Shown in pieces: positions 49 to 11,880 of a stretch of 12,041 bases of DNA. Numbering within the stretch: the stretch's first letter is position 1; each line of letters starts with the position of its first letter. Origin of the DNA: Hyphomicrobiaceae bacterium (lineage in GTDB: Bacteria > Pseudomonadota > Alphaproteobacteria > Rhizobiales > HXMU1428-3). The position numbers were made by a program, and so were the translations under genes. The notes beneath the pieces were generated by a model. It saw only the letters and a list, made by a program, of their open reading frames with translations, had not been told where the DNA came from and ran no database searches. The DNA is taken from assembly GCA_028285025.1 (NCBI GenBank), contig JANQQH010000162.1, forward strand, positions 1 through 12,041. Reading direction: 5' to 3'.

Positions 49-552
49 TTAATCGGCCTGCTGGCAAAAACGGCACAATCCCTTAATCTCCAATTGCCCG
101 TGCGTACTGTGAAAATCTACATGCTTGGCAAATCGCTCGATTAAAGGAGCAAGCGAGGCCCCATCCCCTTCACCAATTGTCCCACACTCATCACAAACAA
201 GAAACACCAACGGATGGTTTGAGCAGCAAGCTTGATCAGTTTCCAAAGGACGCTGGCAGGCAAAATAAGAATTCGTGCTCTCAAGCCGATGAATAAGCCC
301 GGCTTGCCGCAAAAAATCGAGGCAGCGATAAACAGAAATCGGTGAAAGTTTGCGCCCTTGTGCGGCAAAATTATCCAAAATCTGATAGGCTCCAATCGAC
401 TTATGACTGGCGGCCACTTCACACAAAACATCACGGCGCAAACGAGTAAACCGCAAACCTTCCCGGTTGCAATAGTGCTCAGCAAACTCAATTAAGGTTT
501 TGGAGCAATGAGCATGATCATGATCAGCATGAGGAAAAATAGCGTTGGACAT
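49..552 (-). CDS. zur: Zinc uptake regulator Zur (Fur family)
   Basis: This 167-residue protein is a Fur-family repressor that, in its zinc-bound form, shuts off high-affinity zinc uptake genes. The N-terminus is rich in His and Asp (residues 8-15). The winged-helix DNA-binding part spans roughly residues 20-95, with the family-typical stretch SVYRCLDFLRQAGLIHRLES at 73-92. The dimerisation part carries two CxxC pairs, C120/C123 and C160/C163, which form the structural zinc site in Zur and Fur proteins; 'HPLVFLVCDECG' closely fits Zur. The start at 552 is chosen because the reading frame stays open to 789 but the extra 79 residues are low-complexity Phe/Ser-rich translation of the AT-rich spacer, while a GAAGG ribosome site (560-564) sits 7 nt upstream of this ATG. 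A 14-nt-period direct repeat of GTAAAGCCTT (554-563, 568-577) duplicates that site. The gene is probably cotranscribed with znuC and autoregulated. Confidence 0.9.
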   Translation of the reverse strand: MSNAIFPHADHDHAHCSKTLIEFAEHYCNREGLRFTRLRRDVLCEVAASHKSIGAYQILDNFAAQGRKLSPISVYRCLDFLRQAGLIHRLESTNSYFACQRPLETDQACCSNHPLVFLVCDECGTIGEGDGASLAPLIERFAKHVDFHSTHGQLEIKGLCRFCQQAD

Positions 553-585
553 TGTAAAGCCTTCAAAGTAAAGCCTTTCATTTAC

Positions 586-606
586 AAATGTAATATTATC
601 ACACGG
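586..606. promoter_or_regulatory. Zur-box-like palindrome over the zur -10
   Basis: The core TGTAATATTATCACA (589-603) is an imperfect 15-bp palindrome with 6 of 7 arm positions paired. The 21-nt site matches about 17 of 21 positions of the gammaproteobacterial Zur consensus as I recall it (AAATGTTATANTATAACATTT). It covers the -10 hexamer of the zur promoter, so bound repressor would block transcription. An adjacent palindrome, CATTTACAAATG (579-590), overlaps its edge. Site and regulator sit together, which supports zinc-dependent autoregulation of zur-znuC. Confidence 0.55.
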
Positions 607-621
607 TATGATCTGCGTAAA
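593..621 (-). promoter_or_regulatory. zur promoter (-35 and -10)
   Basis: On the minus strand a -35-like TTTACG (616-621) and a -10 TAATAT (593-598) are separated by exactly 17 nt, at the right distance upstream of the zur start. This is a good match to a housekeeping sigma-70 promoter. It was found by eye only. Confidence 0.55.
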
Positions 622-730
622 TACGGATGCAACATTAAAAAAACTGAGCAAAAAGAAAAAACTGTCATCTGAAAAAAATTCAGTAATATTAAAACAAACG
701 CGAATCATATGTCTTAAAAAGTGAAAAACA

Positions 731-1249
731 ATGCCATCCAGAATAGAAATCATCCAAGATGACATTTTAAACTTGCCTGTGCAGGCCATCGTTCTGCCCT
801 CAACCCCAACATTAAAGCCTGAAACCGCTGAACAACAAGCAATATACGCCCAAGCAGGGCCTAAATTGGCGCAAGAATGCGCCCATGTTGCCTCATGCCC
901 AATTGGCCAAGCCCGGATAACCAGAGGCTATGATTTAGGGGCCAATTTCATCATTCATGCTGTCGGCCCCGTTTGGGGCGGCGGAGAGGCTGACGAAGAT
1001 CAACAATTGGCCAGCTGTTACAGCCAAATTTTTGAACTGGTTAAAAGTTTCGAGATTGCCTCTATCGCAATTCCCCCAATCTCCACAGATGAAAAAGGGT
1101 TTCCCCCCCAGCGAGCAGCGCATATAGCGATGAAAGAACTAATTTCTCACTTAAAAGAGAACCCCAATATTGGCCGCATTATTTTATGCTGCGACGATGA
1201 AGCAAGCATTCAAACCTATGAAGCCGCCTTCGATAAATGCACAAGCTAA
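731..1249 (+). CDS. Degenerate macro-domain protein
   Basis: This 172-residue protein is a single macro domain, the fold that binds ADP-ribose and often removes it from proteins. Supporting segments are DDILNLPVQAIV (10-21, the GDITxLxVDAIV strand), QAGPKLAQEC (41-50), GQARITRGYDLGANFIIHAVGP (59-80, split here as GQARITRGY and FIIHAVGPVW) and IAIPPISTDEKGFP (112-125). The adenine-contacting Asp (D11) is kept. The NAAN motif is replaced by LPST (22-25), the Gly-rich loop before the catalytic Asp is replaced by KPETAEQQ (29-36), and the STGxxG loop reads STDEKG (118-123). ADP-ribose hydrolysis is therefore unlikely; binding of some nucleotide ligand is possible. No strong ribosome site precedes the ATG. 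It lies 24 nt before the RimK-like gene, probably in one operon. Confidence 0.85.
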   Translation: MPSRIEIIQDDILNLPVQAIVLPSTPTLKPETAEQQAIYAQAGPKLAQECAHVASCPIGQARITRGYDLGANFIIHAVGPVWGGGEADEDQQLASCYSQIFELVKSFEIASIAIPPISTDEKGFPPQRAAHIAMKELISHLKENPNIGRIILCCDDEASIQTYEAAFDKCTS

Positions 1250-1273: not shown

Positions 1274-2680
1274 ATGGATCAAACATCTCATGAAACGCTC
1301 GAGCAATTAACAGTCGGCTGGCGTGAATGGGTTAAGTTACCCCAATTGGGGCTAGAAGCCATACATGCAAAAATTGATACGGGCGCCAAAACGTCAGCCC
1401 TTGATGCACAAGACATCGAAACCTTTGGTCCCATCGATCGCCCAAAGGTGCGTTTTGGCGTCAAACCCATTGATGGCAATGATGATGTCATCATCTATTG
1501 TACCGCCCCTATTATAGACAAGCGCTACGTCACCAGCTCTAACGGAGAAACAGAGTTTCGCACCATTATTGAAACCAAACTGGGTATAGGCGAACAAACC
1601 TGGCCAATAGAAGTCTCGCTAACCAACAGAAAAAATTTAGCTCACAGAATGCTCTTGGGCCGCAGCGCCATGGACGCGGCCAATTTGGTGGTCGAGCCCA
1701 GTGAAGACTATTTGCTTCAGCTTTTATCCTTTGATGTTTACAAAAATGTAAAAACCCAAAGCCCCGTTGCCCGCGCGTTGCGCATCGCGTTGTTGACAAT
1801 GGAACCAGACAATTATTCCAACGGCCAGTTGATCAATGTGGCTCAAGAACGTGATCATGTGATTGAACCGATTGAAACCACAAGTTGCTATATGAACATC
1901 AATTCCATCACCAGCGGCTTGCATTATAATGGCGAACAATTGCCCCGTTTTGATGCCATCATACCGCGCATTGGCACGCAGATTACAGCTTACGGCACCT
2001 CGATCGTGCGCCAATTTGAAATGACTGGGGCTTATTGTTTAAACACAGGCCATTCTATTTCATCCTCTCGCGATAAATTACAAGCCCACCAGGTGATGGC
2101 CCGCCATGGCTTACCCATGCCCATCACTGCTTTTGCCAGTTCACCAAAAAACACAGAAGATTTAATCAAGCTTGTAGGCGGCGCGCCTCTGGTTGTAAAA
2201 TTATTGAGAAGCACCCAAGGCAAAGGGGTTGTCTTGGCTGAAACCAAAAAGGCTGCCGAATCGGTAATTGATGCCTTTCGCGGCATTGATGCTGACTTTC
2301 TGGTGCAAGAATTTATTGCTGAATCAGACGGATCAGACATACGGTGTTTGGTGTTGGGCAATAAGGTGATTGCCACCATGCAACGGCGGGCCGAACCAGG
2401 TGAATTTCGCGCTAACATTCACCAAGGCGGGTCCGCCAACAGTGTCAAAATCACCAAGCTAGAACGCCAGATCGCTGTAAAAGCAGCCAAATCTTTTGGT
2501 CTCACTCTGGCCGGGGTTGATATTCTGCGCTCCAACAAAGGCCCACTTTTATTGGAGGTAAACTCGTCTCCTGGTCTTAAAGGCATTCAACAAGTAACAG
2601 ATAAAAATCTAGGTGAGGAAATAATTAAACATATTGAAAGCAAAGTTTTTCGCCCAGCAAAAAGATCGGTGGCGAAATAG
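1274..2680 (+). CDS. rimK: RimK-type ATP-grasp ligase fused to zinc-protease-like domain
   Basis: This 468-residue protein joins two domains. Residues about 15-155 match the ATP-dependent zinc protease / RimB family, an aspartyl-protease-like fold, with KIDTGAKTSALDA (33-45) and MLLGRSAM (126-133) as signatures. Residues about 167-460 are a RimK-like ATP-grasp ligase: SSSRDKLQAHQVMARHGLPMP (start of the ATP-grasp core at 263), VVKLLRSTQGKGVVL (307-321, nucleotide-binding Lys and Gly loop), QEFI (345-348), GVDIL (414-418) and EVNSSPG (428-434, metal-binding Glu and Asn). RimK adds glutamate residues to the C-terminus of ribosomal protein S6, and related enzymes make other glutamate-containing peptides. 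E. coli RimK is about 300 residues, so the extra length is the fused protease-like domain. Gene order suggests cotranscription with the macro-domain gene. The substrate is not known; it may not be S6. Confidence 0.88.
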   Translation: MDQTSHETLEQLTVGWREWVKLPQLGLEAIHAKIDTGAKTSALDAQDIETFGPIDRPKVRFGVKPIDGNDDVIIYCTAPIIDKRYVTSSNGETEFRTIIETKLGIGEQTWPIEVSLTNRKNLAHRMLLGRSAMDAANLVVEPSEDYLLQLLSFDVYKNVKTQSPVARALRIALLTMEPDNYSNGQLINVAQERDHVIEPIETTSCYMNINSITSGLHYNGEQLPRFDAIIPRIGTQITAYGTSIVRQFEMTGAYCLNTGHSISSSRDKLQAHQVMARHGLPMPITAFASSPKNTEDLIKLVGGAPLVVKLLRSTQGKGVVLAETKKAAESVIDAFRGIDADFLVQEFIAESDGSDIRCLVLGNKVIATMQRRAEPGEFRANIHQGGSANSVKITKLERQIAVKAAKSFGLTLAGVDILRSNKGPLLLEVNSSPGLKGIQQVTDKNLGEEIIKHIESKVFRPAKRSVAK

Positions 2681-2836
2681 ACATGTTTAAAAACTCTTAA
2701 AAACAAGACAAATATTGGCACATTTTTTTAAAGAAAAAACTGCTTCCAACCGAAATTGGTAACGTCATATTAATCTGAAACAGTCAGTCTTTGGGTTCGT
2801 GTGATTTCTTGTGATTTTGTTTTGGATAGTAATCTT

Positions 2837-4786
2837 ATGCTTCTTAAATTCCCAACCAGTGTTGACGCCCATATTCATGCCATTGGCACACTTTTGGACC
2901 AAACAACCAAAAACCCCCATCATGAGCAAACCATGGCATGCCAAAAAGTCTCCAACGGGTTCCCAGAAGAAGCTCGCCCTTTATGTGAATTAGATGGTGT
3001 TGTCGGCGCCCATGATATTGCCGGATTATTGACCAAACAGGCGACAACAGATGGCGCTATTTGCGTTCGCGCCACCAACCCCTTTTATGATCCCAGTGCC
3101 AACCCCAACCATTGTTGGATGGTCGTGAACCAGGTAAAATTAGTTGGTGATTTATCAGGCCCTATAAAGCAAGAAAATCTATTTGCCTCAAATTTTGTCA
3201 TCAATGGTCGTTTATGGGAACGTCACGCTCCAGATTTAATCCCCACACTGAACACCGCGCCTTTTGAACAGCCAGATATCTTGATTGAAGGAAAAACCGG
3301 CTGCAAGATCGTTAATCCTGTTAAATTAGAGCCAAATCCAGTTGAAGACCTCACATTAAGCGATTTACCTCAAGGGGTTGGGATCATCTTGGGGGCCTTG
3401 GCCTCTGGCTATCCTGGCCAATTTGGCACTGAAAGTTTCGCCAATGTCGATGAATTCTTAGCCGCTATGCAATTTACCCTCAAATTACTGCCTGCCGCTT
3501 TGCGCCATACGATTTCCTTTGCCTACGGCTTTGCCCACCGCCAGCCAATTTGCGCCCTTCAGTATTTTGAAGACAGACAATTAAATTCAGGTGCGTTCAT
3601 GAAACCGATTGCCGCCATTCCTCACGGCGCTGAAAGTTCAATGAAATGCCAACAAATTCGCGGCCTGTTTGCAGAACGGCTCAAAAATGCATACGCTCCG
3701 ACACTCCATTTAAATGAACTGGATGAATTTGAAGATGATGATGAACTGTTTGAAGAAGAAGGCTTATTCGATGAGTTGACAGGTCTTGCCCGTGAAACCA
3801 GCGCCTCATTAGGACAAATTCTCAATGAACTCGGCCTGCATATTCGGGCAGATGAAAGTTTTTTAAAGCCAGAAACCCAAACGAAAAACGCAGCCCTGTT
3901 GGCATTTGACCAACTATTGCGCGGCCAAGACACCACCCCGCTCGTCTCTGGCCTTTATACCCTGTTTAGTGATTTTGATAGCGCTCCACACATTTACGAA
4001 CAGTTGATTGAGGCAATAAACACCCATTTCAAGCCTCAAACCTTGCAACTTGCAAGTTCACTTGGGGCCGCTATTCGTGATGAGCCTTTTAACATCCAAG
4101 ACCCAGAGTTTCTAACCCAAATCGAAGATTTGCTATGTCTGGCTAGCCGCTTGCCGATCGCAGAGCCCTTTCTTGAATACCGCTCGCGCATCATAGAAGG
4201 AGCCGCAGACGGGTTGCGCCAATATATGTCCCATCAACCCTTCTTAACGCCCAAACAACTGATAGCCCTTTCCGAATATGAGCAAGTCTCAGACATGGTC
4301 GCCTGCATTTTGGAAACCGGAGACTGGACCTTCACACAACGCTTAAATATCAGCTTCACAATTTTTGCCCTGTCGGGTGAAGGGTACATTCAAGACGCAG
4401 CCGCCCTTGCTCGCCGCTTACTACCACCAAGCGTTGTATCTCACCAATGGATTCACGCCCTAATTAATAGCCGCGCCCTGGTTGAAGGGTTTGAAACCTT
4501 AATTTTGCATCCTGATTATTTACCAGCAGAACAAGTGATCACAATCCTACACTCCATGACAGACCACCTGGCCCGAACAGGCCGCAAAGAAGTGGTCATA
4601 GAGCAGGTAACAAGACTAAGCCAAACTTTGCCCACTCAAGAAGCGGTCAATTTTTCATCCTCAGAGATTGAAATGCCAATAGAAGATGGCATGATGCTTA
4701 GATTACGCATGATGACCATTTTATCTGACGCCGCTGAACGCTTCCACGCCTCAGCCCAACACGCACGCCTTATTCTATCACGCTAA
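2837..4786 (+). CDS. Uncharacterised ~650-residue soluble protein, possibly GAP1-like
   Basis: No family is recognised with confidence. The ATG at 2837 gives 649 residues (numbering used here). A GTG at 2801 would add 12 residues and an ATG at 2924 would remove 29; none has a strong ribosome site. There is no signal peptide, membrane segment or P-loop. Residues about 55-175 contain 'RATNPFYDP' and 'HCWMV' (92-96). Residues 217-232 read LLPAALRHTISFAYGF, which resembles the 'LLP-x-x-LR-x-x-ISF-x-T' segment I recall from GTPase-associated protein 1 (GAP1)-type proteins. An extremely acidic stretch follows (about 294-313, 13 of 20 residues Asp or Glu). The rest, about 310-649, looks all-helical. 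It is the first gene of the cassette. The GAP1 link is a weak inference from one segment. Confidence 0.75.
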   Translation: MLLKFPTSVDAHIHAIGTLLDQTTKNPHHEQTMACQKVSNGFPEEARPLCELDGVVGAHDIAGLLTKQATTDGAICVRATNPFYDPSANPNHCWMVVNQVKLVGDLSGPIKQENLFASNFVINGRLWERHAPDLIPTLNTAPFEQPDILIEGKTGCKIVNPVKLEPNPVEDLTLSDLPQGVGIILGALASGYPGQFGTESFANVDEFLAAMQFTLKLLPAALRHTISFAYGFAHRQPICALQYFEDRQLNSGAFMKPIAAIPHGAESSMKCQQIRGLFAERLKNAYAPTLHLNELDEFEDDDELFEEEGLFDELTGLARETSASLGQILNELGLHIRADESFLKPETQTKNAALLAFDQLLRGQDTTPLVSGLYTLFSDFDSAPHIYEQLIEAINTHFKPQTLQLASSLGAAIRDEPFNIQDPEFLTQIEDLLCLASRLPIAEPFLEYRSRIIEGAADGLRQYMSHQPFLTPKQLIALSEYEQVSDMVACILETGDWTFTQRLNISFTIFALSGEGYIQDAAALARRLLPPSVVSHQWIHALINSRALVEGFETLILHPDYLPAEQVITILHSMTDHLARTGRKEVVIEQVTRLSQTLPTQEAVNFSSSEIEMPIEDGMMLRLRMMTILSDAAERFHASAQHARLILSR

Positions 4787-4805
4787 AAAGCCCAGACTTG
4801 GAGTA

Positions 4806-4927
4806 TGCCTTAACTTCCATGGTAAGATTTTTGCATTTTAAAAGCGGTTGTCAAGGACGCGGAGCGCAAGTGAAATCCTTGACAACCGCTTTTAAAATGC
4901 CAAAGTCTAACCATGGAAGTTAAGGCA
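4806..4927. repeat. Long inverted repeat, 52-bp arms (copy 1 of repeat family)
   Basis: The left arm (4806-4857) and right arm (4876-4927) are reverse complements at 49 of 52 positions, around an 18-nt loop (4858-4875). Both ends carry TGCCTTAACTTCCATGG. It begins 19 nt after the stop codon of the upstream gene. The transcript would fold into a very long hairpin, a likely RNase III target and possible 3'-end protector; there is no U-run after it, so it is not a standard intrinsic terminator. Two degraded relatives lie after the next two genes. The compact ends-plus-palindrome form suggests a non-autonomous mobile repeat (MITE- or REP-like), but no transposase is visible. Confidence 0.9.
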
Positions 4928-4982
4928 CGGGCTAGCCACATATTCATAAACACGTTAAACAGAAAAATAAGAGCTGTATCTT

Positions 4983-5007
4983 GCCTCAATTATGGATTAT
5001 TTGAGGC
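4983..5007 (+). promoter_or_regulatory. Hairpin burying the ribosome binding site of the next gene
   Basis: GCCTCAA (4983-4989) pairs exactly with TTGAGGC (5001-5007) across an 11-nt loop. The 3' arm contains the GAGG ribosome binding sequence (5003-5006) for the ATG at 5011. In RNA the stem would hide that site, suggesting translational control of the ATPase gene. A 7-bp stem can also occur by chance. Confidence 0.4.
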
Positions 5008-5010
5008 CCT

Positions 5011-8000
5011 ATGGCTAAGCAGACAAAAGCACATATCAATTTAAAAGCCCCCGGGCAGTATGATTATCTCACCAGCGTCGCCTTTGAGCACGACCAGAGC
5101 GAGTGTTTGCGCCTGTCTGAGATCAGGGTGCGCCATACAAACGGCGAAAAACCCTTTAAACTGCCGCTTAACTTGCTCACTTGGTACACAGAACACGCCC
5201 CGGCCGGGCGCGAGATCACCCGTGATGACAACAATCAACAAAACCATGCCAATCTTTTTGTTGATCTGGCCAGTCTGCAAGACCAGCTGGAAACATTCTC
5301 GCTCAAAGCGCCCTTTTTGCTCGAAATTGATATCAGCGAGCTGGACCGTAATGATGACGCGCTGATTCGCAAAGACAATGGCCTGCTGGATGTGGTTGTT
5401 TATCTCTATCACGGCCCGAAGTCCAAATGCGCCCTCTCCCTTTCACATTTAGGGCAAGCCTCTGCCGAAAAGGCAGCAAAGCCAACCTATTTGTTCCCCG
5501 GCCATTGTGGCCCTGATGGCCGGTTTGATCTTGCTGAATGTGTATTAAGATCCAACGAAGGCCCGCTTGACCCGCGCTCGGACAAACGCGTGTTAATTGC
5601 AAACCTGACACTTGATGCGCCTTATCAAAATCTGCGCCCGAAACTGATCAAACACATCAAACTGTACAAAGACCAAGAGCGTGAACCTAACGATTACATT
5701 CGTGACATTCACCACTATGAAGAACGCTACCAAACCTACCCTTGGGATCAAAAAATGCCATTCCCTGACGGTGCTCATCTTTTTGGCCCGCTTTTGCCGC
5801 AATCTCCAAAGGAAAAGGCACGCGGCTTAACACTGTCACTAGCAGCGCCGACAACAGACCCCCTATGGCATGAGGTGAAAAAAAGCCAACAAGCAAATGG
5901 CGGCAAACCCATCACCGGCCAGCTAGACCTGATCCTGCCAGAGCCAGAAGAAAATGTGATCGCAACAATTCCCCTTGGCCTGAGTATGGACAAACACCCC
6001 TGGCTCATCATCACCAACGCCCAAGCACTAAGTGCACCGGTGCTTATTCCGTTGGATAAAGAAGAAAAAAAACAAGATTTAACATTGTCACTGCCAGCTC
6101 TAACAACAACATCTGCCAGCCAACTTTTGTCAATCCAATATTATGACAACCATGTGCAATCAGATGTTGTCCAACAAGCCTTAACAGTTGCTTTTAACCC
6201 GCATAATAAGGCCAATAACACCCATGTCATCAAACCAGAGGTGCTCGAGCTTGCTGACCAAAACCGCCAAATGGTGCTGTTAAACCCTGTGCCGGGTTCA
6301 AAACAAAAAACCAAAGCAGGCACAAAGCTAAAACTAAAATGCGTCTGGCCAGAAAGCCAAAAAGCAATCACCTATACATTGACCATAAATTGGCTCAAGA
6401 CCGACCAAGCCCACGGCTTTGCCATTGATATTGGGTCAAAGGCGATTGCGATGGCCAAACAAAATGAGGGTAAGGTCAGCCCGATAAAATTAGGCGCTCA
6501 TGCGCCTCGTCATTTTATCAGCCCCTATTGCTTGCCCTCCTCAGTTATGCTTTCAACCAGCCTCAATAAACAAGATGCTCAAGAGCCAACCATCAAAGAT
6601 GAGAATTGGCGCGCCCAGACCTACCCTTTAAGCCTATCTTATTCGATCCCAGAATCATCATCACCGTTCGATCACCGGCTCACCACCTTGCAGCGCCATT
6701 ACGACATAGGCATGCCGGGCAAAGAGGTGAGCAGTGATGCCCAAACGAATTTAAAGAACCTCTTTACCAGCAATAAAACACAAAAACCAATCGCCAAAGA
6801 TGAATATTATATCGCGCGATATCAAGCTAAAGACAACCAATCAAGCCAAGATACGGGCCTTGTAAAAACCTTAGTCCCAAACCTGTTGTTGGCCGATTGT
6901 CTTTCAGAACTGATAAATTTTTACGGCACCTGTTTGCCGCGCATTCACGCTGATGAGCCTGCCACAGTGGAAGAAAAAAATGCTGCCGCTACGGTAAGGG
7001 AAGAGGGCACAACACTGGTGCTAACCCACCCAGACTATTTCACTGACACAGCCAAATATAATTATCGCCGCGCTGGCACAAAGGCCCTGGCCCACTATGA
7101 ACAGGGCAGTTTTCATACTCTGGGAGAAACAGCAGAACTGTTAGGCTTAAAAAGCCAGCACCAAATTGGCAACAACGTTCACCTTATATCAGAATGCACA
7201 AGTGGAGCCTATCAAGCCCTGATGCAATTGGCAGAGCAAGACCAACCGGCCAGACCAAAAACAGTTGAACAAATCCATCTCGAGATTGGCAGCCGAACAG
7301 CCAGCATCAGTGCCTATAGAGGATGGATTGGGGAAACAAATGCTGTTTTAGAACGCCAATATGGCACCATCACGCTGCCTTTGGGTGGTCAAACCTTGGC
7401 AAATGCCCTGGCCAATGAAGTGGCAAAAATTCTAGAAGAGGCGTTGAATAGCGGAGCCCCAATCACTCTTGAAGCCCCACTTCCCTTATCTCAAGACCAG
7501 TTTCAAGCCGCACAAACCCCACAAAATGAAGCCGAGCAGCTCCAGTTTCAGTTCATCAAAAACTTAAACCAAGCCATTGTGGACAGTTCTGAAAATACAG
7601 GCCTGCAAATCTGTTTGGCCAAAAGCTCACCTGGCAATTGGCTCTTTTCCTTGGCTTCAACCATTGCCATAGACAACGCACCCATTACCCTTTGGCAAGG
7701 CTTGCGCGAGGAAAAAATCATCCTAACCAGCAATGAACAGAAAACCGAATGGGAACTGACATTACACTGCTCTTGTGAAAAGATGAGTGAAAAAGTCGGG
7801 CCGCTTTCAACCTACCTTGCCTTTCTGACACAATTTCTGCCCAACACCATTAGCAATTGTTTTCCTGACGATTCTAACGTTGATGAGCCGCTCATCTCCA
7901 TAAGTGGTGGTACAGCTTTATTTACCCCCATCCAAGCGGAGATTGTAAAAACAGCTCAAAATTTAAAATGCCGTTTTTTGCCCGCACCAAAAAACTATGA

Positions 8001-8520
8001 ACAAGCCAAATTAGCTGTAGCAAAAGGCGCATTAAATCTGGTTGCTAATCAATCTAAATCCCCCGTTCGTATAACCAATCCAAGTTTATTGCTGATCCCC
8101 TTATCGCAAGAGGGGGCCCCCCATAATGATCTTTCCAGCATGTCACAAATTAAAAACAAAGCCTTGATTGCAAACAACAGCGCCCGAGGTCTTATCCCAA
8201 AGGGGTGTCATTCTATACAAGTGGTTGAAACCATCCCCGGCCTGGCTCATTTAATGGTCCATACCCCCCAGGCCATAAGCTGCCGCCCTTACTTGGAAGA
8301 CCTTGACACCGCCAACAAAACCCAATGGGCCATGGCAGAAAGCCAATGGCAATTTTGGCTGCAAGACTGCGCACAAACGATGCTCAACATGGGGGTTCCT
8401 GATACTGATCAGCCTATCCAATTGGAATGGCGCTACCAATCTCTACAAGAAAACGAAGCGCAACTTACGGTCGCCGATCACACTTATTGGATTAGCTCAG
8501 GTCTTACCCCATCAGATTAA
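5011..8520 (+). CDS. Large Hsp70/actin-like ATPase-fold protein with long N-terminal extension
   Basis: This 1169-residue protein has no signal peptide or membrane segment. Residues 1 to about 460 look mostly beta-stranded and are not recognised. From about 468 on, the landmarks of an Hsp70/actin-fold ATPase appear in order: FAIDIGSKAIAMA (470-482, phosphate 1, D473); LISECTSGAYQAL (725-737), corresponding to the Hsp70 'INEPTAAAL' segment; IHLEIGSRTASISAY (755-769, phosphate 2, with Glu758 where Hsp70 has Asp); LPLGGQTLANALANEV (789-804), corresponding to 'HLGGEDFDNRLV'; LISISGGTALFTPIQAEIV (961-979, adenosine motif); and AVAKGALNLV (1002-1011). No Hsp70 substrate-binding domain follows, although about 155 residues remain at the C-terminus. 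Salmonella SrfB is also thought to carry an actin-like core but aligns poorly by memory. The start is set by ATG at 5011 with GAGG 4 nt upstream, inside a hairpin. It is likely a cytosolic partner of the membrane protein encoded next. Whether it hydrolyses ATP is open. Confidence 0.8.
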   Translation: MAKQTKAHINLKAPGQYDYLTSVAFEHDQSECLRLSEIRVRHTNGEKPFKLPLNLLTWYTEHAPAGREITRDDNNQQNHANLFVDLASLQDQLETFSLKAPFLLEIDISELDRNDDALIRKDNGLLDVVVYLYHGPKSKCALSLSHLGQASAEKAAKPTYLFPGHCGPDGRFDLAECVLRSNEGPLDPRSDKRVLIANLTLDAPYQNLRPKLIKHIKLYKDQEREPNDYIRDIHHYEERYQTYPWDQKMPFPDGAHLFGPLLPQSPKEKARGLTLSLAAPTTDPLWHEVKKSQQANGGKPITGQLDLILPEPEENVIATIPLGLSMDKHPWLIITNAQALSAPVLIPLDKEEKKQDLTLSLPALTTTSASQLLSIQYYDNHVQSDVVQQALTVAFNPHNKANNTHVIKPEVLELADQNRQMVLLNPVPGSKQKTKAGTKLKLKCVWPESQKAITYTLTINWLKTDQAHGFAIDIGSKAIAMAKQNEGKVSPIKLGAHAPRHFISPYCLPSSVMLSTSLNKQDAQEPTIKDENWRAQTYPLSLSYSIPESSSPFDHRLTTLQRHYDIGMPGKEVSSDAQTNLKNLFTSNKTQKPIAKDEYYIARYQAKDNQSSQDTGLVKTLVPNLLLADCLSELINFYGTCLPRIHADEPATVEEKNAAATVREEGTTLVLTHPDYFTDTAKYNYRRAGTKALAHYEQGSFHTLGETAELLGLKSQHQIGNNVHLISECTSGAYQALMQLAEQDQPARPKTVEQIHLEIGSRTASISAYRGWIGETNAVLERQYGTITLPLGGQTLANALANEVAKILEEALNSGAPITLEAPLPLSQDQFQAAQTPQNEAEQLQFQFIKNLNQAIVDSSENTGLQICLAKSSPGNWLFSLASTIAIDNAPITLWQGLREEKIILTSNEQKTEWELTLHCSCEKMSEKVGPLSTYLAFLTQFLPNTISNCFPDDSNVDEPLISISGGTALFTPIQAEIVKTAQNLKCRFLPAPKNYEQAKLAVAKGALNLVANQSKSPVRITNPSLLLIPLSQEGAPHNDLSSMSQIKNKALIANNSARGLIPKGCHSIQVVETIPGLAHLMVHTPQAISCRPYLEDLDTANKTQWAMAESQWQFWLQDCAQTMLNMGVPDTDQPIQLEWRYQSLQENEAQLTVADHTYWISSGLTPSD

Positions 8521-8535
8521 AAAAGCGCCTGGGTT

Positions 8536-8578
8536 GTGCCTTAAATGCCAAAGTCTTAACCATGGGATTTAAGGCACG
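8536..8578. repeat. Internally deleted copy of the inverted repeat (copy 2)
   Basis: GTGCCTTAAAT (8536-8546) and ATTTAAGGCAC (8567-8577) are perfect 11-bp inverted repeats around a 20-nt centre. Positions 8543-8578 match the right arm of copy 1 (4895-4929) at 33 of 35 positions plus a 1-nt insertion, and the first bases match the left terminus of copy 1. It therefore looks like copy 1 with its left arm and loop deleted. It starts 16 nt after the stop codon of the ATPase gene. Confidence 0.75.
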
Positions 8579-8740
8579 CAGCAAGTCTCACAAGGTGGTA
8601 TTGTCGCACCGCGCAGTATATTTTCATTGAAAAAAGACCAATTTGCCTCAACGGAACCATAAATTCAGGTTATAAAGCTGGTTCTAAACTGTCAGCCTCA
8701 GCTATTTCGGGCTATAAATCGGGGGATTTTAAAAAAGAGT
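8579..8740. other. Leader region of the membrane-protein gene
   Basis: This 162-nt spacer has no open frame of note. It holds near-direct repeats GGTTATAAA (8668-8676) and GGTTCTAAA (8680-8688), 12 nt apart, and a second loose pair starting GCTAT at 8701 and 8711. No convincing -35/-10 pair was found. A weak AAGAG lies just before the ATG at 8741. Confidence 0.3.
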
Positions 8741-11113
8741 ATGTCTTTGTTTCGTGCACCAGCAATGGTTTTTGGCGGGCTTATGCGCTCTGCACTCACC
8801 AATGAGCGCTTATTCCTCATGGGGCTGACCAGCCTTGCTCTTTCGCTCGCCTCTGGCTGGACCACCTTTGAAGGCATGACGAATTTCACCAAATCCCCTG
8901 TTTTGTGTTTTCTCATCACCTTTGGCGTGCAAGGCATTATGCTGGTCAGTGCCTGGATGATTGGCGAGGCCTTAATTGCATTAAAAGACAAAAGAGCAGG
9001 TAAAAACAACAATGCTGCCAGCCAAATTATCTCCCATGTATTTCACGGGCCGATCTCGGTTTTAAAAATCTGGCTGATATGGATGGTGTTTTTATTCTCC
9101 ATGGCCATTTCAGTATTTTTCTCCTTTGATAGCTTGTTCAGCTCAATCTTTAGTGACGAAGAACGCAAACGCGCCGGTGAAATTCGCGCCCAAAGTGAAG
9201 TCGGCGCTGTTTTGTCAGATTTGAAACAGCGCGTTGAGCAACGAAAATTTGAAGCCATTGACACACTGATGGCCTCAGACGGGTGGAAAGCCTATAACAC
9301 GCGGCTTGATGAGCTGGTCAAAATCGCCCGTTCGGCCCCAGAATTGGTCGAACAACAATTGCTCACCAAACTGCGCAACGAACAAGCTGAGATCGCCCGC
9401 CATCAAGAAACGTTGGCGCAAGCAAAGGGCCAAAAAGCCGCCCTGAAAACCCGCCAGACCAAAATAAGCCAAAACATCACCAGGCTAAAACAAGACCGCC
9501 CAGGCTTAAGCGCTGAGGTTAATGACCTGCGCCAAAAACTGCAGGCCAAACAACGCCTGATTGATGAGAAAAAAGCCCAAGCCTTAGAAGAGGCGCGCGG
9601 CATCGGCGCCACAGGCAGGGAAGGGGAAGGCCCGAAATTTCGCGCCATTAAAGAACAAGAGCGTCGCTTAATAGCCGAGGGTGACGTGCTAAAAACCCAA
9701 AAAGATTTAGCCACCACACGGCTCGAAACGCTAGACAATCAAATCGGCACCCTTTCAAGAGAGCTTGAACTGTTAAACGGCGAAGTTGCTAAAATTGAAG
9801 GTCAAGCAGCCGTTGCTCAAACCTTTATTGAAGCCCAAGCTAAGCGCCAAACTGAAACCGCCAGCAAAGAAAATTCAGCAACTGCCAGCATAGACAGTTT
9901 GGACAAAGCCAGAGATTTGTTTTCCCAACAGCCCAATGGGCAAACCTTTTTAAGCATTCAGCAAAACTGTACCAACTTGCACAATGCTCTATCTCAGGTC
10001 CCCAAAATAGCACCGAGAATTGAGGGCATCTCATGTGAACCAGGCGCAGGCGCGGCTACGGTTGCTGCACGCATTTTCACGCTGCAAGAAGCCCAAGCGG
10101 CCCAAACCCAAAAATGCGTTATCGGCAAAACCAAGGCCAGCAGACGCATAGACAATCTGCTAAAAGTGGGCCAACGATGCATTCAAAACTCAGGCTTGCC
10201 TGAGGATGATGCCAATCAATTACGCACAGTTCTCAACCGGGTTGATTTAAATCGGGATGACAAAGCCAAAAACTTTGTTGTCACCTTAAACGCCTTTAAA
10301 GACGGCAACTGGTTGGCCTATTTGGCCCTTGGCCTGGCCATCGCCATTGACAGCCTGGTGTTTATCTCCGGCCTCATCGGGGCAAGAACCGCCTCTTATG
10401 AAAACACAGGCAGCCCGTCAGATATCATGAAATATGGGTTGGGCATGTCCATTGAATTGGAAGGCTCAGAACCAGAAGACATCTACACCCGTAAAATATT
10501 TTTTAGAAGCATCAGCGGCCCTTCCCCGATAGAAGGCTATCTTGCTATCGTTGACCGCAGCAATTTAACCCAAGAAGAACTGACCCATGTCAATAAAGTT
10601 CTGACCATTGCTGGCGATAAAATCCGCCAAGACGTTGGCAATCCTGACCTGTTCCATATTGAAGAAAAATTCTATCAAAATCTGGCGCGCCAAGTTTATT
10701 TATGGGATCAATTTAACCGGCCAAAGACCAAGAAACGGTCAATAAAACCCTCGCGCCAGAACAAAATCGCCAATGACAATTTAGAAGATGAGCCAAAAGC
10801 GTTTTCGCTTTCCAAATTTGGCCAGCCCTCAAAGGGGTCCATTATTAAAAAAGGGGAAACCCGCTCTTCCTTTTTAAAGAATGGCCCGGCTGACTTGAAT
10901 GTGCCAGAAGAAGCCACGCCTGCAACCTCAGTTCCTGTTATTGAGCGCAATGAGGAGGAAGAATTTGACCAAGCCTCAAACGATTTAAAAACAACACCGC
11001 TACAAGCGTTTAAAAAGCTCTCTCAAGCTTTGCCAAGCTTTGGAAAAACCAAACAAAAACAAGCCAATGCCCCCAAAACTCCTCCGGTAAAACCACCAGA
11101 AAACGATAATTAA
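8741..11113 (+). CDS. Inner-membrane protein with long coiled coil and four-cysteine segment
   Basis: The family of this 790-residue protein is not recognised. It has hydrophobic segments at about 24-44, 53-80, 108-128 and 524-549. Between the third and fourth lies a charged, heptad-rich coiled coil (about 139-385) and then a segment with four cysteines (C410, C432, C459, C480); the only other cysteine is C56, in a membrane segment. With the N-terminus inside, the coiled coil and cysteines would be periplasmic, where two disulfides could form, and residues 550-790 would be cytoplasmic. That tail has a compact part (about 565-645) and a disordered Lys/Pro/Glu-rich end. The hydrophobic N-terminus lacks a cleavage site. 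It is the last gene of the cassette and plausibly links the envelope to the cytosolic ATPase-like protein. DUF4407 proteins share a membrane-plus-coiled-coil plan, but I see no clear sequence match. Confidence 0.85.
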   Translation: MSLFRAPAMVFGGLMRSALTNERLFLMGLTSLALSLASGWTTFEGMTNFTKSPVLCFLITFGVQGIMLVSAWMIGEALIALKDKRAGKNNNAASQIISHVFHGPISVLKIWLIWMVFLFSMAISVFFSFDSLFSSIFSDEERKRAGEIRAQSEVGAVLSDLKQRVEQRKFEAIDTLMASDGWKAYNTRLDELVKIARSAPELVEQQLLTKLRNEQAEIARHQETLAQAKGQKAALKTRQTKISQNITRLKQDRPGLSAEVNDLRQKLQAKQRLIDEKKAQALEEARGIGATGREGEGPKFRAIKEQERRLIAEGDVLKTQKDLATTRLETLDNQIGTLSRELELLNGEVAKIEGQAAVAQTFIEAQAKRQTETASKENSATASIDSLDKARDLFSQQPNGQTFLSIQQNCTNLHNALSQVPKIAPRIEGISCEPGAGAATVAARIFTLQEAQAAQTQKCVIGKTKASRRIDNLLKVGQRCIQNSGLPEDDANQLRTVLNRVDLNRDDKAKNFVVTLNAFKDGNWLAYLALGLAIAIDSLVFISGLIGARTASYENTGSPSDIMKYGLGMSIELEGSEPEDIYTRKIFFRSISGPSPIEGYLAIVDRSNLTQEELTHVNKVLTIAGDKIRQDVGNPDLFHIEEKFYQNLARQVYLWDQFNRPKTKKRSIKPSRQNKIANDNLEDEPKAFSLSKFGQPSKGSIIKKGETRSSFLKNGPADLNVPEEATPATSVPVIERNEEEEFDQASNDLKTTPLQAFKKLSQALPSFGKTKQKQANAPKTPPVKPPENDN

Positions 11114-11129
11114 GACTACTCAATATCTC

Positions 11130-11145
11130 ACCATGGAAGTTAAGG
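11130..11145. repeat. Remnant of the inverted-repeat family (copy 3)
   Basis: ACCATGGAAGTTAAGG is identical to 4910-4925 in the right end of copy 1 and matches copy 2 (8560-8575) at 14 of 16 positions. It begins 17 nt after the stop codon of the membrane-protein gene, in the 59-bp gap between that gene and pyrF, which converge. Chance identity of 16 bp at the same relative position is unlikely. Confidence 0.6.
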
Positions 11146-11172: not shown

Positions 11173-11880
11173 CTAACTAGCGTTAGATATTTCTTCTTGA
11201 ATGGCTTTGGCAGCCAGATGAGGATCATCTGCCTGGCAAATGGGGCGACCAACAACAATATGATTGGCCCCATTTGCAATGGCTTTGCCCGGTGTCATCA
11301 CCCGCGCTTGGTCTTGGGTGTCAGCGCCAGTAGGGCGAATGCCGGGCGTGACAATCAAATAGTCTGGCCCCACAAGGTGGCGAATATCACGCGCCTCATG
11401 GCCAGAGGCAACAAGTCCATCAAATCCAGCTTGCTTGGCAAGTTGCGCCCGTTTGAGCACCAGCTCTTGCGGGGAAAATTGAGTGATGCCTTGTTGCTGC
11501 AAATCATCGGTGTCAAGATTGGTCATCACGCTCACACCCAACAGCTTTAAGTCGGAAGAGCCGCGCCCGCGCACTGCTGCTTCAAGCGTTTTATGGTCGC
11601 AGACATGCAAAGTTAAAAAATCCACGCCCATTTTAGCAATATTAGCCGTTGCCTTTTCAACCGTGGTGCCAATGTCCAACAATTTTGCATCAACAAAAAC
11701 CCGCTTGCCTTGGCGCTTTAATTCCAAAGCTAGATCTTGTCCGCCTGCAAACAACAATTCCAATCCCACTTTGTAAAACTGGCATTGGTCACCAACGGTG
11801 GCAACAATGGCGCGCGCTTCCTCAACCGTTGGAAAGTCAAGCGCTACGATCAGCTTGTCAGAAGAAATCTGTGTGGTCAT
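11173..11880 (-). CDS. pyrF: Orotidine 5'-phosphate decarboxylase
   Basis: This 235-residue protein, of normal family length, catalyses the last step of UMP synthesis, decarboxylating OMP in the cytosol. It carries the family landmarks in order: LIVALDFP (10-17, D15), YKVGLELL (36-43, K37), the catalytic FVDAKLLDI (62-70, with the D64, K66 and D69 triad), LLGVSVMTNLD for the mid-barrel strand, VTPGIRP for phosphate binding, and NHIVVGRPI near the C-terminus. The usual 'DIPNTV' reads DIGTTV. The ATG at 11880 has AGG 8 nt upstream and starts 6 nt after the stop codon of the preceding gene, so the two are probably cotranscribed. It converges on the cassette. Confidence 0.97.
   Translation of the reverse strand: MTTQISSDKLIVALDFPTVEEARAIVATVGDQCQFYKVGLELLFAGGQDLALELKRQGKRVFVDAKLLDIGTTVEKATANIAKMGVDFLTLHVCDHKTLEAAVRGRGSSDLKLLGVSVMTNLDTDDLQQQGITQFSPQELVLKRAQLAKQAGFDGLVASGHEARDIRHLVGPDYLIVTPGIRPTGADTQDQARVMTPGKAIANGANHIVVGRPICQADDPHLAAKAIQEEISNAS

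Follow-up and report, generated by a model that had tools for sequence, protein, structure and literature searches.

What do three large adjoining genes do in an uncultured alphaproteobacterium of the Hyphomicrobiaceae, when none of them belongs to a named family? The window, a stretch of 12,041 nucleotides (bases 1-12041 of contig C360 in an assembly of 2.41 Mb and 549 contigs), carries these genes on the plus strand, and we refer to them as A (2837..4786; a soluble protein of 649 amino acids (aa), counted from the start common to its relatives), B (5011..8520; a 1169-aa protein of the Hsp70/actin superfamily), and C (8741..11113; a 790-aa DUF4407-like membrane protein). An earlier sequence-only reading had described three large same-strand genes between housekeeping genes that fitted no system known to it, and both points are upheld: the open reading frames (ORFs) and the flanking genes were confirmed, and Pfam, NCBIfam, and PADLOC name none of A, B, and C. 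The new observation is that relatives of B in two other families head runs of genes that encode a penicillin-binding protein (PBP) and a RodA-like protein. We tentatively favor the reading that B and C act as a pair between cytoplasm and envelope and serve cell-wall or envelope assembly (with a probability of roughly 0.4), because their relatives meet in one genus and each flank a PBP and a SEDS-like gene elsewhere.

Judged from their sequences, all 3 reading frames are real genes, since full-length homologues exist (21 rows for A, 21 for B, self included, and 33 for C) and the ratio of nonsynonymous to synonymous substitution rates (dN/dS) is low: of 57 pairs, 19 allowed dS to be estimated and gave values of 0.03-0.17, the others being saturated. 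Read from its first start codon, the frame of gene A spans 2801-4786; its relatives share the ATG at 2837 instead and are usually 649-654 aa long, so that this ATG is probably the start.

B is built of a beta-rich N-terminal region (residues 1-460), an Hsp70/actin-superfamily domain (approximately 466-1020), and a C-terminal alpha/beta region. Hsp70 core motifs had been noticed in it before, and both the alignment with distant relatives and the predicted fold bear this out. D473 and G475 are kept in all 24 aligned rows, and E728 and G760 in 23 of 24; position 758 is Asp in 18 of the 21 genus-type rows and in all 3 distant rows, and Glu in the B of the window. We take these residues to be the phosphate-1 Asp and Gly, the connect Glu, and the phosphate-2 Asp and Gly. 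The predicted fold matches solved members of the Hsp70/actin (ASKHA) superfamily over the whole domain, and going by this model B has the ASKHA fold, with MreB and DnaK tying in the comparison. At the level of sequence, no Pfam family, HSP70 included, matched B at E ≤ 1, and hhalign against the DnaK profile gave a probability of 0.3%, that is, no sequence-profile link; 11 PDB chains at E ≤ 1 (best 0.26) were not interpreted. The likeness to Hsp70/DnaK and MreB concerns the fold of the central domain and the order of the motifs. Unlike these proteins, B carries a 460-residue beta-rich region ahead of the domain and has a degenerate phosphate-2 loop.

The Hsp70 fold would also suit a divergent chaperone module, in which B, as an Hsp70-type chaperone, would act on envelope proteins, C would be its membrane tether, and A would be a co-chaperone. 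Some alignments with DnaK chains extend into the C-terminal region of B (model range up to 1168), and dnaK and dnaJ lie downstream in loci L002, L004, and L005 (identified by Pfam in L004). However, the nucleotide domain of B is not N-terminal, MreB fits its fold as well as DnaK does, and the lack of a profile link and the degenerate loop point the same way, which makes a chaperone improbable. SrfB (PF07520), which has a similar size (about 1000 aa) and, in its consensus as read by eye, long stretches on either side of an Hsp70-like motif set, was rejected as parent family, being unsupported by neighborhoods and profiles. B has no PF07520 match, and hhalign between B and SrfB gave 0.2%; a PF07520 match was found in 10 of 190 genomes, and the genome of the window is not one of them. 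In eight SrfB loci, whose neighbors differ from those of B, the B profile touched a single SrfB (in L087, with E = 0.008 when the ORFs of this locus were searched). As the control comparison of DnaK with SrfB reaches only 18%, hhalign is insensitive on such shallow alignments, and a remote link between SrfB and B may therefore exist.

The evidence for a role at the envelope comes from distant relatives. Among 121 genomes sampled from the order, A was found in 4, B in 5, and C in 17, the 5 with B being four genomes of the genus of the window and G048 (a short match, E = 2.3e-10). A larger sample of 377 genomes from the order yielded 11 with B, namely the eight of the genus, G492 (E = 3.6e-8), G602 (E = 5.7e-6), and G048, which had by then contributed its sequence to the B profile. 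Compared with B by hhalign, these 3 distant relatives gave E-values of 1.9e-11 (G492, locus L098), 1.3e-11 (G602, L099), and 3.1e-12 (G048, L052), and none of 16 shuffles for each reached the score. The relative in G048, searched against 41 genomes, matched itself and, weakly, G033 only.

In G492, B is followed by a 281-aa protein with one hydropathy peak, a 521-aa protein, a PBP, a SEDS-like protein, and an 820-aa protein that is possibly C-like. The order in G602 is B, a 498-aa protein, a PBP, and a SEDS-like protein, and its 498-aa protein is related to the 521-aa protein of G492 (E = 7e-14). On contig C359 of G048, a 622-aa protein, a PBP, and a SEDS-like protein precede C. All 3 PBPs exceed the PF00905 cut-off and share the motifs PGSTFK, SSN, and KTGTA, which we take to be those of PBPs. 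In the SEDS-like proteins of G048 and G602, a stretch of about 110 residues resembles RodA (E = 3e-5 and 5e-6, respectively), with scores far below the equivalog cut-off, and the G048 protein also matches PF01098 at a score below its cut-off; the one in G492 has no family match, and BLASTP links it to both of its counterparts (E = 6e-54 and 9e-29). Their ORFs exceed 1000 aa (2188-6144 in L053, 16095-19868 in L099, and 4331-7495 in L101, from longest-frame starts), and in L053 and L099 the RodA similarity is restricted to a stretch near the C-terminal end. These runs recall the RodA-PBP2 synthase, a pair of a SEDS protein and a class B PBP, in that distant B relatives are encoded together with PBP2-like and, weakly, RodA-like proteins. 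Unlike that system, the locus in the window has neither partner; in the distant genomes, the ORFs of both partners greatly exceed the RodA and PBP2 models in length, and their scores fall well short of the equivalog cut-offs.

The run in G492 (L098, L100, and L101; G492:C3) lies amid genes for CHAT, vWA, protein-kinase, and integrase-core proteins, and may be a mobile island. Such neighbors also speak for a conflict or defence system (anti-phage or signaling), which the sequence-only reading had listed as a possibility. The large proteins, the combination of an ATPase-like fold with a membrane protein, and weak matches of C to the PADLOC models LmuB and JetC through its coiled coil (best E = 1.1e-4) are in keeping with this idea. 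However, A and B match no PADLOC family at E ≤ 1, their place is fixed in 8/8 genomes of the genus, and plasmids gave no match for B or for its relative in G492, which makes a role in defence very improbable. Seven proteins of the distant operons gave a single weak PADLOC match, which was judged to be due to chance, and the literature, as titles and abstract starts, contained nothing linking ASKHA/Hsp70, FtsW, and a conflict system. Surface assembly, another possibility raised earlier, is the branch favored by the PBP and SEDS-like neighbors of the relatives. The same neighbors lend indirect support to the proposed partnership between the membrane protein and the ATPase, as in other families relatives of B and of C each adjoin a divergent pair of PBP and SEDS-like genes.

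Within the genus, which makes up the entire family (8 genomes), C is present in 8/8 and the order A-B-C holds in 8/8, although A is cut by a contig end in L003. This count comprises the window, G033, and six named loci, which are Hyphomicrobiales contigs of metagenome-assembled genomes (MAGs; two are labeled Rhodomicrobium and Methyloligella) belonging to six of the 8 genomes. A macro-domain gene and rimK precede A in the four genus contigs long enough to show them, and pyrF lies downstream in five of the six named loci, directly adjoining C in three. In the sample of 240 genomes from the class, A was found only in the genome of the window, and B and C there and in one further genome each (G318 and G338, respectively); the latter matches were judged to be chance from the ORFs present there.

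C has a wider range: in 12 other Hyphomicrobiales genomes it occurs although neither A nor B is detectable there. We read 15 regions from 13 genomes of other families (of the 17 with C), 14 with a C relative and one (L052) with the B relative. In L042, L043, L044, L049, L050, and L051, a lone C has zur, znu, or ispG genes close by (reference genes named by Pfam as FUR, ABC-3, ABC_tran, and GcpE), and in L045 and L047 it adjoins a macro gene, while L046, L048, and L053-L056 have other or cut neighborhoods, with C split into 2 ORFs in L055. These positions suggest that C is the older gene at the locus, and that rimK, A, and B came between the macro gene and C in the lineage of the window. As a separate observation, zur, znuC, znuB, or ispG, whole or in part, beside the lone C in L042-L044 and L049-L051 may hint at a link between C and zinc supply. 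The A-B-C cassette is not one ancient unit. Within this single genus the genes do stay together, but across the order C is scattered and often lacks A and B (C in 17/121 genomes, against 4/121 for A), which is partly the pattern that had been named as evidence against the cassette.

These positions leave a second explanation a serious possibility: A, B, and C could be unrelated neighbors, an old Hyphomicrobiales C at a zur/macro locus beside which A and B were inserted once, the order then being kept by synteny. The eight loci in which a lone C has a macro gene or zur, znu, or ispG nearby (L042-L045, L047, and L049-L051) are in line with it, as is the conservation of macro, rimK, and pyrF in the genus, and the gaps between the genes, 63-657 bp in the seven loci compared, show that they form no tight operon. 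Yet in other families relatives of B and C each have PBP and SEDS-like genes as neighbors, and the adjacency of A, B, and C has outlasted a divergence of B to approximately 40% identity.

C was said to have four membrane segments. Hydropathy peaks above the threshold were found at 54-72, 100-137 (two windows), and 528-546, whereas a fourth, N-terminal segment at about 24-43 scores below it. Residues from about 140 to 400 have the composition of a coiled coil and give weak SMC-type matches, so that the coiled coil reported earlier is likely to be present. The clustered cysteines seen before are four in number, C410, C432, C459, and C480, and are invariant in 34/34 aligned rows. By sequence, C is homologous to DUF4407-like proteins: four close relatives (P0046, P0048, P0050, and P0061) carry this label, and PF14362 matches C of the window with 16.5 bits. 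Unlike DUF4407 members, it stays below the Pfam cut-off of 31.3 and matches over residues 219-345 only, within the coiled-coil part. Of the 13 C rows with less than 50% identity, 12 are 1078-1132 aa long and one is 447 aa; 3 long relatives (G001, G046, and G090) have a second match to the C-terminal domain and seem to carry it twice, compared with a single copy followed by a variable tail in C of the window. In a tree, C of the genus forms a supported clade (99/99); the root and the placement of two SEDS-operon rows are unsafe because of long branches.

A belongs to no Pfam, NCBIfam, or PADLOC family and has no hydropathy peak. All but one of its 21 relatives share 67-95% identity (the other 55%), and the adjoining genes contrast markedly in this respect, A being approximately 70% identical across relatives, and B mostly 39-51%. 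The structure model of A is poor (predicted local distance difference test (pLDDT) score of 55), and only its helical stretch, from about 351 to 480, is predicted well; its helical-repeat matches in a fold search (best E = 0.02) were not interpreted. A is not related to the 622-aa protein of the G048 operon. The role of adaptor once assigned to A is unsupported by any evidence, and we propose no function for it with confidence.

In the envelope reading, C would be anchored in the inner membrane, with the coiled coil and the cysteine region on the periplasmic side and the C-terminal domain on the cytosolic side. The cytosolic B would bind nucleotide via its central domain and hold partners with its beta-rich N-terminal region, and it would make or break contact with C, or with partners that build the wall, according to its nucleotide state. 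In the genus of the window, the pair would work without a dedicated PBP and SEDS pair, and A may be a genus-specific soluble accessory.

Several observations weigh against this reading. Operon-type PBPs, searched for with a profile built from those of G048, G492, and G602, were found in these 3 genomes and in 0/8 genomes of the genus. B is associated with PBP and SEDS-like genes in two genomes, and C in one clear and one marginal case, the latter being the 820-aa protein of G492. Its hhalign comparison with C gave E = 0.0065 and a score of 32.8, compared with 32.5 for the best of 60 shuffles, and the C profile did not find it, although its cysteines 440, 462, and 488 repeat the 22 + 26 spacing of C relatives. 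The SEDS-like gene of G602 has no C-like gene after it, and the B and C of G048 sit on separate contigs (C321 and C359, respectively). Outside the genus, no single contig carries both a secure B and a secure C. The SEDS-like similarity is below curated cut-offs, and 12 of the 17 C-bearing genomes of the order have no detectable B. Adjacency alone proves little, because the entire region is syntenic in the genus. Lastly, with its phosphate-2 loop degenerate in the genus, and Glu in the window where 18 of 21 rows have Asp, hydrolysis of nucleotide by B appears doubtful.

The window further contains a gene for a Fur-family regulator (49..789, minus strand, as called; its true start is probably further in), which looks Zur-like judging from the znu neighbors in relatives. 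On the plus strand follow the gene for the macro-domain protein (731..1249), a kind of gene that also adjoins the lone C in L045 and L047, and one for a RimK-like ATP-grasp protein fused to a putative ATP-dependent zinc protease domain (1274..2680), a fusion that holds its position between macro and A in the four genus loci of greatest length. These two flank A-B-C on one side, and pyrF (orotidine 5'-phosphate decarboxylase; 11173..11880, minus strand) on the other. Rfam gave no match within the window at the gathering threshold. A repeat family shared by the 3' flanks of A, B, and C had been noted, and it is present after all 3 genes: a full palindromic interspersed element of 122 bp with 52-nt arms between A and B (4806..4927), and partial copies between B and C (8537..8576) and after C (11121..11145). 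The palindrome has at least 76 matches, both strands counted, at at least 40 distinct places in the genome (a lower bound, with 40 of 89 candidates scored). Because the same element occurs across the whole genome, it is an ordinary interspersed repeat rather than a mark of the cassette.

The actin-fold proteins MreB and FtsA steer the cell-wall synthases of rod growth and division. A bolder and rather unlikely version of the envelope reading is that B stands at the head of a branch of the Hsp70/actin superfamily not described before, and that this branch provides the cytosolic switch for a machine dedicated to envelope assembly. The operon of its full form would encode the Hsp70-like protein, a soluble protein of about 500-620 aa, a PBP, a giant SEDS-like protein, and the membrane coiled-coil protein C; in the genus of the window, the synthase pair would be absent, B having joined an older C, and A. 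In titles and abstract starts, the literature held nothing joining Hsp70-like proteins with SEDS and penicillin-binding proteins, none of the papers that combine two of the subjects Hsp70-like, DnaK-like, actin-like ATPase, and SrfB was judged relevant, and none named the MAGs of the genus; DUF4407 appears in 3 papers and SrfB/SrfABC in 44. A family with the Hsp70 fold recurring beside SEDS-PBP genes would be another kind of partner from the actin/Hsp70 superfamily for wall synthesis, and the orphan DUF4407-type membrane proteins would gain a function.
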